DNA from: Sinohyriopsis cumingii
Lineage: Eukaryota; Mollusca; Bivalvia; Unionida; Unionidae
DNA: 64,000 nucleotides
Assembly: GCA_028554795.2 (NCBI GenBank)
Contig: CM068828.1
Span: 20,515,936 to 20,579,935, forward strand
Reading direction: 5' to 3'
Shown here: piece by piece, positions 26,601-32,600 of the stretch
Position numbering within the stretch: the stretch's first letter is position 1
How the letters are laid out: each line of letters starts with the position of its first letter
Program-made: the position numbers and the translations under genes
The notes under the pieces: model-generated
Databases searched by the model: none
Told to the model about the DNA's origin: nothing
What the model saw: the letters and a program-made list of their open reading frames with translations, nothing else

Positions 26601-29600
26601 GACTTTCTCATTCAGATCCTTTACCACAAACAATAAATATCAGCAACACCAACATTAAATTCACACAATCAGTATGAAACCTAGGTGTTACTCTGGACAG
26701 TACTCTCACATTGCACCAACATGTCATGAACATATGCAAGGCTGCATATCTTGAGCTGAGACGCATCAGCTCAATTCGCAAATATCTTTCAATTGATGCC
26801 ACTAAAACACTTGTGTGTTCATTAGTACTTTCAAGACTGGACTATTGTAACTCAATTCTGTCTGGTTCATCTCAATATCTGCTCCAGAAACTTCAAAAAG
26901 TTCAAAAGACAGCTGCTCGGATCATACTTAGAGTACCACGATCAGAGCAGACCTCCCCGCTGCTCTGTACCCTACACTGGCTATCCATTCGATCCAGGAA
27001 CAAACACAAAATTTGTTCTCTGTGCTACATTTCACTGTAGGACTCTAGTCCAACATACCTATCCGACCTCACCCATGTGTAACACCAGCAAGATACTTAC
27101 GCTCCTCTTCTGACAATCGTATACTCATTATTCCTACTATGAAAACAAAGTCATATGGACAGCGTTCTTTCGCATACCAGGGCCCAGCTACATGGAATGA
27201 ATTGCCCACTGAACTTAGACACAAAGATACAGTGATCACATTCAAGAGAGCTCTCAAGACCCACTTATTTCAACTGCAAGAACAAACTTAAAGACCTAAT
27301 AATGTTTCCTACCGTAAATATTCTCAGCATGTTTTTTTTTTTAATGTTTTCTCATTTCATGGTGTTTGTTTTTGTAATCATATTATTATATGTTTTTTAT
27401 CTTATAGGTGTTGTCTGATGTTGTAAAGTGCTTAGAGCTTCTAAAGATTAGGTGCTATACAAAGTCATCATCATTATTATTATTATAACCATATTATTTA
27501 CCAACTTTCATGGTAATCAATCAAAAACTGCAGGACCAGTTCTTCTAACCAGATTATCTCAATCACTCCTTAAGTTTATACAACAAAAATGTCAGTAATT
27601 TCTAATATATATTGCAGGAACAAAGTGATTTGTCAACATGGATATCTTCAGGTGATCACCGTCCTATTTACCAAGTTTCATAGCAATCCATCAAAAAATG
27701 TAGAACTGAATTAATGAGAGTGCATCACACAATGCATTAAACTTCAATAGGGCAATAACTGTGACAAAAGGGCAATAACTGTGACAAAATAAACAAAGAA
27801 TAAAGATTTTTGTTGATGTCTGCATCTTTTGGCAAACAAAAACTGGATGGGCCAGCAGATGGACAAAAGGATTACGATCTACTTATGGTGGGGATTTAAA
27901 AAGGCAATAGATTGGTGACTTACACAATTAAGCAATTGGATGCAAAAGATACAATCCTTTTCAACTGTGTATGTCAATCTATCTGTATGTATGTATGTAT
28001 GTATGTAAAGAACTCTCTAGAAACTGGCTTAAATGTACCACAATAATACCACTTTATTATAGTTTGCATGATTCCTGATATCAGGACAAAGGCCTAAACA
28101 AATGAGTAATGCATATTCCAAATCATACCTGAAGGCTTTGACTTGACAGGAGTAGTACTTGTCTGGCCATGGGCCATTATTAAGAATATACCTCTCCAAC
28201 TGGAATAGATGGTAAAAAAAATAAATTCTGTGGTATGTACACAGCGCTCTAGCTAGAAAGAAGCAGCAAGATGTTCTCCCCTCAGCCGACCCCAATGCCT
28301 TAGCAATCCCTCTAGCTGCCCCTCTCCCAGCAAGATTTTGTTTTGAACAATCAAAAATGATATTATATCCAAGATGTCATTTCTTATTGGTTGATTATAA
28401 GTAGAAACTCAAGCCCAGTTTTATGATCTCCTAGAATGAATATATTGGTATATTTATTTGATGCTGAATACAAATTTAAATCTTCATTTGTCTGGGCTTA
28501 CTTCCAAAACATGTACAACAGCAAATTATTTGTTGGACAGAAATGTCTCTTTAATCCCAAAATGTTAAAATGTGCCATATTCTAAATTACCGATCATGTC
28601 CACCCATCCAATTCCTTGTTGCAACATTGTTTCATTATTAATCAGTACAAAAATAGTTAATCAATATTTCACTTCAGGCTTTTCTGCATGAACTAAAACA
28701 ATTGGTTGAAGTGTATAACAATCAGAGCCCCTCTGAAAAGAACACTAGCTGTGAGAATTGGTGCTACTTTACTGTCTTTGATTCTGCACTACATCATTTT
28801 CATACAAAGAAATTGCTCATAGCAAAATTAGTGACAAAACAAGCTTGAAAAGAATTTTTTATCAAATGGCAGCAACCAATTCCAAATAAGTCTGTGTACA
28901 TACTTTTAAAAGACGTATGAGCAATGTTTCATTGAACTGATGTAACACACCAATGACAATTTAGTTTTGGATTGGATAGGGACAGCAGGTCTTGGTGCCA
29001 GGTTTCTGCTTCTTTCTTTAGAAACACTTTGACCTATTGCTCTAAATAAGTGATACATGTTACGACCAAAAATCAAATGTATATTCTACATGTTCATGAC
29101 ACAGGATTGTGAAAATGCATATGTCTGTATAGGGTTTGATGGCTTTTCAGCACAACCAAAAGCAAAAAAAGTAAAATCCGTAAGATTCCAGTTTCATCAT
29201 TTTAGGAGCATCAAATGCTTATGTATGTATAGGACACCCCCCACCCCCCTATTCAATTTCAACAATAATTTAATACTTTATTTTCTTTTCCGCCAAAGAC
29301 ATAAAATCACTTTATAATCATCATGCATTTTTCTTTTTACTTTTATTACTCCAGAGAAAGGATTGTTAATGCATATTTCAAAGACTCAGGTCTGCAACAA
29401 AACTTCTACTGATGCCCACAATAGCTTACATAGATATGAAATCCACACAAAAAAATTAAATCACTTACATCTTTACAGAAGACATGGGACAGTTCACACT
29501 TACATCTTTACAGAAGACATGGGACAGTTCATACTTACATCTTTACCAAAGACATGGGACAGTTCACACTTACATCTTTACAGAAGACATGGGACAGTTC

Positions 29601-32600
29601 ATACTTACATCTTTACAGAAGGCATGTGACAGTTCACACTTACATCTTTACAGAAGATATGGGACAGTTCAAACTTACATCTTTACACAAGACATAGGAC
29701 AGATCACACTTACATCTTTACCAAAGACATGGGACAGTTCACACTTACATCTTTACAGAAGACATGGGACAGTTCATACTTACATCTTTACAGAAGATAT
29801 GGGACAGTTCAAACTTAATCTTTACACAAGACATAGGACAGATCACACTTACATCTTTACACAAGACATAGGACAGATCACACTTACATCTTTACCAAAG
29901 ACATGGGACAGTTCACACTTACATCTTTACAGAAGACATGGGACAGTTCATACTTACATCTTTACAGAAGGCATGGGACAGTTCACACTTACATCTTTAC
30001 AGAAGATATGGGACAGTTCATACTTACATCTTTACAGAAGACATGGGACAGTTCATACTTACATCTTTACAGAAGGCATGGGACAGTTCATACTTACATC
30101 TTTACAGAAGGCATGGGACAGTTCATACTTACATCTTTACAGAAGACATGGGACAGTTCATACTTACATCTTTACAGAAGGCATGGGACAGTTCATACTT
30201 ACATCTTTACAGAAGGCATGGGACAGTTCATGCTTACATCTTTACAGAAGGCATGGGACAGTTCATACTTACATCTTTACCAAAGACATGGGACAGTTCA
30301 CACTTACATCTTTACAGAAGACATGGGACAGTTCATACTTACATCTTTACAGAAGACATGGGACAGTTCATACTTACATCTTTACAGAAGGCATGGGACA
30401 GTTCATACTTACATCTTTACAGAAGACATGGGACAGTTCATACTTACATCTTTACAGAAGACATGGGACAGTTCATACTTACATCTTTACAGAAGGCATG
30501 GGACAGTTCATACTTACATCTTTACAGAAGGCATGGGACAGTTCATACTTACATCTTTACAGAAGGCATGGGACAGTTCATACTTACATCTTTACCAAAG
30601 ACATGGGACAGTTCACACTTACATCTTTACAGAAGACATGGGACAGTTCATACTTACATCTTTACAGAAGACATGGGACAGTTCACACTTACATCTTTAC
30701 CAAAGACATGGGACAGTTCACACTTACATCTTTACAGAAGACATGGGACAGTTCACACTTACATCTTTACAGAAGACATGGGACAGTTCATACTTACATC
30801 TTTACAGAAGACATGGGACAGCTCATACTTACATCTTTACAGAAGACATGGGACAGATCACACTTACATCTTTACAGAAGACATGGGACAGTTCATACTT
30901 ACATCTTTACAGAAGGCATGGGACAGTTCATACTTACATCTTTACAGAAGGCATGGGACAGTTCACACTTACATCTTTACCAAAGACATGGGACAGTTCA
31001 CACTTACATCTTTACAGAAGACATGGGACAGTTCATACTTACATCTTTACAGAAGACATGGGACAGTTCACACTTACATCTTTACCAAAGACATGGGACA
31101 GTTCACACTTACATCTTTACAGAAGACATGGGACAGTTCATACTTACATCTTTACAGAAGACATGGGACAGTTCATAAAATCGCTGTGAATTGGGATCAG
31201 TCAGATCTGACAGGAAGGTCAGATTATAGACAAATACTGTCATGTCGATATACAGATCTCCATCTGGTGGATAATAATAATAATAATAGTAATAGTAGTA
31301 GTAACTGTAATATCATGAGATCAAAAGAATAAAATATGAAATAAAAAGAGAAAACTTAAAAGAATTAAATGTTGTAGTTTTTGTGTTTTAACTGTGGGAA
31401 ATGAAATACACTCAAGAATATGTTTATAATAGTCCCTTTTCTTGCTTCCCTCATTCATAATGTTTATAATAGTCCCTTTCTTGCTCCCCTCATAGGCAAT
31501 GTTTATAATATATATTTTCTTGCTTCCCTCATAGGTAATGTTTATAATAGTCCTTTTCTATCTTCCTTCATAGGCAATGCTTATGATGGTCCCTTTCTTG
31601 CTTCCCTCATAGGTAATGTTTATAATAGTCCCTTTCTTCCTTCCCTCATAGGTAATGTTTTTAATAGTCCCTTTCTTGCTTCCCTCATAGGTAATGTTTT
31701 TAATAGTCCCTTTCTTGTTTCCCTCATAGGTAATGTTTTTAATAGTCCCTTTCTTGCTTCCCTCATAGGCTATTTTAATAATAGTCCCTTTCTTGCTTCC
31801 CTCATAGGTAATGTTTTTAATAGTCCCTTTCTTGTTTCCCTCATAGGTAATGTTTTTAATAGTCCCTTTCTTGTTTCCTTCATAGTAATGTTTTTAATAG
31901 TCCCTTTCTTGTTTCCCTCATAGGTAATGTTTTTAATAGTCCCTTTCTTGCTTCCCTCATAGGCTATTTTAATAATAGTCCCTTTCTTCCTTCCCTCATA
32001 GGTAATGTTTTTAATAGTCCCTTTCTTGCTTCCCTCATAGGTAATGTTTTTAATAGTCCCTTTCTTGCTTCCCTCATAGGTAATGTTTTTAATAGTCCCT
32101 TTCTTGTTTCCCTCATAGGTAATGTTTTTAATAGTGCCTTTCTTGCTTCTCTCATAGGCTATTTTAATAATAGTCCCTTTCTTGCTTCCCTCACAGGCAA
32201 TGTTTTTAATAGTCCCTTTCTTGCTTCCCTCATAGGCAATGTTTTTTTAATAGTCCCTTTCTTGCTTCCCTCATAGGTAATGTTTTTAATAGCCCCTTTC
32301 TTGCTTCCCTCATAGGCAACATTCATAATAGTTTCTTGCTTCCCTCTTAGGCAATGTTTCATTGGATTCAACCATATAAATTGGTTAATACAGTGAATTC
32401 GTTGAAGGCTATTCCATTTAAACATAAAAGGTACCCATGAGAGGTAGTTATTTTAAATAATTGACACAGGTTCTCTTAGCACTCAAAGAGTTTACATGCA
32501 AATGATACAAATTCTAAACTACATTTTGGGGTAACTAAACCACAACAGAACCTGCCTTGTATGTGACAGAAGTATTTTTTATTTTGCAACAGCCCTTATT

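Follow-up and report, generated by a model that had tools for sequence, protein, structure and literature searches.

Tandem repeats that span exon-intron boundaries have been described in lancelets under the name of mirages (PMC3087553), with units of 10-72 bp in Adh3, of 150-160 bp in BflGb6 (6 and 3 units in two haplotypes) and of 157 bp in BflGb9; troponin C and PGBD5 are further genes that carry them (PMC3902484). The Adh3 data and reverse-transcription PCR on the globins suggest that mirages do not disturb regular splicing, with their copies as possible cryptic sites, and the repeats are unstable in length and may seed new introns (PMC3087553). In human segmentally duplicated genes, tandem repeats whose units average 30 bp are found at exon-intron boundaries, with about 4 repeats on average, and have been connected with novel introns; for 66% of the intron modifications there are also transcripts in which the repeat stays exonic (PMC2812944). 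A minisatellite of the human 6-16/IFI6 gene, of which two downstream units are used as donors, is associated with three mRNA species (PMC4526556), while the Rogers model derives intron gain from the tandem duplication of AG/GT proto-splice sites (PMC3087553). In the present work, we describe a 35-bp minisatellite of 49 copies that begins inside an exon of a predicted gene whose product would contain repeated SEA domains and continues into the following intron. The gene lies on the minus strand of a 64,000-nucleotide stretch of the genome of the mussel Sinohyriopsis cumingii (assembly GCA_028554795.2, contig CM068828.1, positions 20,515,936 to 20,579,935), hereafter the window, to whose first letter all coordinates are counted; the exon is the first of the third SEA domain, exon 3a, and the intron is that between exons 3a and 3b (Table 1).

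The array has the same anatomy as the lancelet mirages. It spans a predicted exon-intron boundary, its repeat units contain the splice signals, and, to judge by sequence only (the gene model, the paralogues, an abalone homologue and coding drift), the exon-adjacent unit forms the authentic boundary and the rest are intronic copies. It differs from them in occurring in a mollusc, in having 49 copies against the 6 and 3 units of BflGb6, and in lying on the donor side only, whereas the lancelet cases include acceptor sides. With the human exon-edge repeats it shares a minisatellite-type repeat at the boundary, although 49 copies stand against about 4. As in 6-16/IFI6, the units bear splice donors, but in the mussel donors 2-7 all end in a stop. 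As in the Rogers model, a splice-site segment appears to have been duplicated in tandem; unlike in that model, no new intron is seen, and the intron position is kept in paralogous exons. A human 6-16 minisatellite with multiple splice donor sites was reportedly described by Turri et al. in 1995. Among the literature matches listed, exon-edge repeats came from lancelets and human. Arrays at exon edges are thus already known as a kind, and that of exon 3a is an unusually long case. Its 48 donors with the same core, 35 nt apart, provide a natural experiment on how, among many equal 5' splice sites, the first comes to be chosen by the spliceosome, and the copy of the exon edge that each unit carries offers a simple reason why such arrays would survive.

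The 49 copies run head to tail, 48 of them of 35 bp and one of 34 bp, and both edges of the array are clean. Tandem Repeats Finder (TRF) calls it at 29463-31177 with a period of 35, 49.0 copies, 94% matches and a score of 2961. The donor sequence GATGTAAG (GAT/GTAAG, where the slash marks the exon-intron boundary) is intact in 48 of the 49 copies, which places 48 donors of equal core at a spacing of 35 nt; the base that follows is T in 47 of these and C in 1. The whole window holds 51 minus-strand occurrences of GATGTAAG, and 48 of them lie inside the array. Sixteen of the 49 copies, copy 1 counted, are identical to the exon copy, and the mean identity to copy 1 is 96.1%. An earlier note on this DNA had described about 49 tandem donors beginning at 29462, a unit composed of the exon's final 30 nt and GTAAG that had grown from a boundary at 31148 into the intron, and the retention of GAT/GTAAG in almost all copies. 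The array and the retained donors are confirmed and the unit matches copy 1, the start alone being off by 2 bp (29464). Copies 1-2 (z 0.27) and copies 1-4 (z 0.07) fold no better as RNA than shuffled sequences.

The gene itself is a partial model of ten exons (2a, 2b, 2c, 3a, 3b, 3c, 4a, 4b, 4c and 5a), every one of which is bounded by an acceptor AG and a donor GT. In each complete SEA domain the phases run from 1 to 0 in exon a, from 0 to 2 in exon b and from 2 to 1 in exon c, and the joined exons are open for 515 codons. The Pfam SEA family matches the gene model in three stretches (E 4.3e-20), while exons 3a and 3b taken alone reach 17.9 bits, under the cut-off of 26.4. All four modelled SEA 'a' exons stop at a homologous point, which reads FC.D/GTAAGT in 2a, 3a and 5a and FCNK/GTAAGG in 4a. 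When the 515-aa model was used as a query against proteins, no homologue was found at E <= 1 among 7993 scored candidates, probably because the candidates were limited to similar lengths; a longer query gave one homologue among 7995, the predicted protein P0121 of the abalone Haliotis rufescens (E 9.2e-48, 21% identity over 86% of the query). Five of six local alignments with this protein reach the 3a/3b junction, and in all five the junction is ungapped. Given the phase-consistent model, the homologous ends of the paralogous exons and the abalone alignment, the exon-proximal donor would yield the conserved protein, which supports its being the authentic donor of exon 3a. Since the paralogous exons 2a, 4a and 5a have no overlap with an array, the array probably arose at exon 3a.

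Reading frames were translated for donors 1-7 of the array. Splicing from donor 1 leaves exons 3b and 3c free of stops. With donor 2, 35 nt are added and the frame shifts to a stop in exon 3c, and donors 3-7 all end at one TAA within the extension. The donors beyond these would meet that stop too, since the first 70 nt of their extensions are identical. The predicted protein is hence kept only by the exon-proximal donor. The earlier note had likewise held that the second donor leads to a stop in exon c, that the extension contains TAA from the third donor on and that only the first donor preserves the protein, and the translations of donors 1-7 agree on all three points. It had also named homologues in related species without the exon identity of the repeat as telling against its account; on inspection, the paralogous exons end alike and the abalone protein aligns over 3a/3b.

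Differences among the copies bear on whether the donors or the extra exon ends are maintained. Substitutions are present in 9 of the 35 columns, all within columns 1-22, and columns 23-35, the donor included, are substitution-free. The events are few, and the chance that columns 28-35 (GATGTAAG) would be spared is P 0.066, that of an invariant run of at least 13 columns on a circle P 0.099; across the 49 copies, selection on the donors is not evident, as the donor columns are not significantly more conserved than the other columns. Over the exonic 30 nt, the copies carry 12 different substitutions, of which 3 are synonymous and 9 are not, set against 17 synonymous ones among the 90 single changes possible there, and the FC pair common to the four SEA 'a' exons is altered in 11 of the 49 copies. 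From this pattern and the changed FC pair, the extra copies appear to drift in the manner of untranslated DNA. Divergence from copy 1 is greater in the 16 intron-distal copies than in the others, at 2.06 mismatches versus 1.13 and 0.94 (P 0.0077, for a split picked after seeing the thirds), which fits older copies at the far end. With regard to a concerted turnover that would leave the edges less homogenised, the copy at the exon-side edge nevertheless belongs to the commonest unit type; repeated runs of unit types show a weak excess in pairs (P 0.017), a lesser one in triples (P 0.069) and none in fours (P 0.44).

Three other readings of the array were tried and rejected. A coding repeat is unlikely, given that 35 nt is not a multiple of 3, that TAA occurs in the extension on the gene strand and that the extra copies have no coding constraint. 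Plus-strand open reading frames of 572, 486 and 450 aa lie over the array, as would those of an antisense gene, and are accounted for by a copy 1 unit that is stop-free in all three plus-strand frames. As for a transposon as the source of the unit, the rest of the window has no 14-mer in common with the unit of copy 1.

We consider it most likely that the array is a neutral minisatellite that has grown over an exon edge and is spliced at the exon-proximal donor; the choice of donor, the neutrality and the mechanism of growth are what we infer here. A segment made up of the exon 3a end and the adjoining 5 nt of the intron would have been duplicated in tandem, and the array would then have expanded, with turnover of its units through slippage or unequal exchange, like many minisatellites of the window. 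The unit adjoining the exon body would supply the authentic exon end and the further units would be intron, so that the protein would be spared because every unit bears its own copy of the exon end and of the donor. Splicing would most likely take place at the exon-proximal donor, which is the first to be transcribed and gives the shortest exon (116 nt, versus 151 nt and upward), with U1 binding the remaining donors only briefly, if at all; a transcript spliced at a later donor would contain a premature stop. A pre-mRNA has been described as carrying one or two U1 small nuclear ribonucleoproteins (snRNPs) (PMC8724738), and such an occupancy would be a plausible reason for the extra donors not mattering. 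No significant sign of a functional role of the array was seen in the donor columns, in the coding constraint of the extra copies or in the minisatellite coverage of the window.

Several points nonetheless weigh against a neutral array spliced at its first donor. The choice of donor is predicted from the DNA, and the substitution-free columns 23-35 are a hint, at most, of donor constraint. By analogy, the extra donors might be used: the human 6-16/IFI6 gene employs downstream repeat units as donors (PMC4526556), human exon-edge repeats are linked to novel introns and alternative transcripts (PMC2812944), and mirage copies could act as cryptic splice sites (PMC3087553). In view of the human exon-edge repeats, we lowered our confidence in the neutral array slightly and raised, also slightly, that in two readings in which array length has an effect. 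According to one of these, the array is a length-polymorphic splicing regulator, in which use of later donors rises with copy number, the stop-containing transcripts lower the amount of protein, and array length thereby sets expression. It draws on the premature stop that follows from every later donor translated (2-7), on the 48 competing donors with identical GAT/GTAAG, on the use of repeat-borne donors in human IFI6 (PMC4526556), on the frequent alternative transcripts at human exon-edge repeats (PMC2812944), and on a study in C. elegans that connects intronic minisatellites of a different kind with alternative splicing (PMC4039745). However, lancelet mirages are reported not to give rise to aberrant mRNAs (PMC3902484), and the donor columns lack a significant excess of conservation; we regard such a regulator as unlikely. 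The related proposition, in which splicing occurs at the 48 near-equal donors at low rates that depend on copy number, and array length, varying between individuals or somatic tissues, tunes the premature-stop fraction and hence the dose of SEA protein, seems to us less likely still.

The array might instead act at the RNA level as a U1 sink or decoy, holding U1 snRNPs and thereby protecting the intron or titrating U1. In favour of this, 88 minus-strand GT sites in the window agree with the donor consensus at 7 or more of 9 positions, and 47 of them belong to the array, its first donor counted; of 169 GT sites whose duplex energy equals or surpasses that of the array donor in strength, 90 fall within the array, neighbouring GTs of one donor being counted separately. 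On the other hand, none of the 5 sites with at least 8 consensus matches lies in the array, and the array donor is middling in duplex energy among the ten model donors (-7.3, in a range from -3.5 to -12.3). One intron is, moreover, small beside the cellular U1 pool, and we hold a sink to be extremely improbable. Tandem arrays are often mis-sized in assemblies, and the copy number, or the array itself, could therefore be an assembly artefact. Yet 12 kinds of substitution and one deletion distinguish the copies, whose divergence is uneven along the array, and the edges of the array are clean; the copy differences and clean edges point to a real array, though not to an exact count, and an artefact is very improbable. 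The interpretation offered in the earlier note can thus be divided. Its anatomy, exon origin, growth into the intron and frame consequences hold, while for its U1 sink or length-dependent regulator no support was found in the conservation of the donor (P 0.066 and P 0.099) or in the extra copies, which change residues kept by the exon. Nor does it mention that arrays of this kind had been described in lancelets and human genes. The neutral array spliced at the exon-proximal donor accordingly remains the reading we favour.

The window as a whole (GC 35.5%) is rich in arrays, with minisatellites of period 10 or more covering 34.8% of it in 44 merged stretches. The position of exon edges relative to these arrays was compared with that of the same exon set shifted at random within 14000-43500. 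Inside arrays there are 2 of the 20 exon edges of the model versus 6.6 expected, and 2 or more were obtained in 98.6% of the shifts; within 50 bp of an array there are 6 edges versus 8.1 expected. No attraction of arrays to exon edges is seen for these 20 edges, and, since the observed edges in arrays fall below the random expectation, exon-edge arrays need no special cause. The window holds a second exon-edge array, at the end of exon 4c (Table 1), in which TATT/GTA(T or C)GTAT is repeated after 15353, 15303 and 15253, and splicing from its second donor would change the frame and meet a stop within exon 5a.

Table 1. Coordinates of the exon-edge arrays, the exons and intron concerned, and the reverse-transcriptase remnant (positions in the window; all exons are predicted).
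Feature	Coordinates	Strand	Remarks
49-copy minisatellite	29464..31177	-	unit TATGAACTGTCCCATGTCTTCTGTAAAGAT/GTAAG, 35 bp; donor kept in 48 copies
Copy 1	31143..31177	-	final 30 nt of exon 3a, followed by the GTAAG of the exon-proximal donor
Copy 39, 34 bp	29814..29847	-	G after GAT lost, giving GAT/TAAG
Exon 3a, first of SEA domain 3	31148..31263	-	phase 1 to 0; 116 nt; donor GAT/GTAAGT
Intron 3a-3b	28200..31147	-	2948 nt, of which the array makes up 1684 nt (57%)
Exon 3b	28129..28199	-	phase 0 to 2
Exon 3c	23608..23975	-	phase 2 to 1; carries the stop reached from donor 2
Paralogous exon 2a	42804..42916	-	end FCAD/GTAAGT; no array overlap
Paralogous exon 4a	21122..21234	-	end FCNK/GTAAGG; no array overlap; array stops 12 nt from acceptor edge
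Paralogous exon 5a	14534..14646	-	end FCSD/GTAAGT; no array overlap
Second exon-edge array	15209..15361	-	50-bp unit, 3.1 copies; takes in the last 9 nt of exon 4c (15621-15353)
Reverse-transcriptase remnant	25988-27040	+ (two frames)	inside intron 3b-3c; Pfam RVT_1 in first frame, no Pfam match in second

Other arrays lie near exons of the model. Beside exon 3a, a 39-bp array at 31420-32359, on the plus strand and so opposite to the gene, reads by eye like a repeated acceptor (TTTCTTGCTTCCCTCATAG/GTA). Two short arrays, at 23987-24121 (TRF period 44) and 21246-21344 (period 39), lie upstream of exons 3c and 4a, respectively, and each stops 12 nt before the acceptor edge; the unit of the former includes TACTAAT, which we take to resemble a branch point. 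Downstream of exon 2b, 24 nt separate the donor edge from the start of a 57-bp array (35266-35561). Elsewhere, the arrays at 21483-21707 and 22581-23111, about 870 bp apart, have a common 33-bp unit that agrees at 32 of 33 consensus positions, and nested arrays at 36727-38769 combine units of about 59 bp with a higher period of 304 bp. The 25-bp array at 1-8041, of about 322 copies, begins at the window edge and may be cut there.

With respect to further SEA exons, profiles of the model exons gave no other strong match in the window. Upstream of the model, a weak candidate for a SEA first exon was noted at 52886-52725 (profile E 0.013), as was a segment at 54632-54288 that contains a stretch which looks membrane-spanning by eye and has no Pfam match.

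Finally, the intron between exons 3b and 3c contains the remnant of a reverse transcriptase in two plus-strand frames. For the frame at 25988-26674, the named relatives within the best 120 of 7750 matches include two from Sinanodonta woodiana, a freshwater mussel, whose identities of 81% and 79% each extend over 57% of the query, and several labelled as the bacterium Thiolapillus sp., the first with 56% identity over 100%; the latter labels probably reflect eukaryotic DNA in metagenome assemblies. Together with the abalone homologue of the SEA gene, the mussel matches to the remnant would on their own suggest a mollusc, probably a freshwater mussel (order Unionida). The frame at 26678-27037 has 86% identity over 120 aa to the mussel protein P0098.

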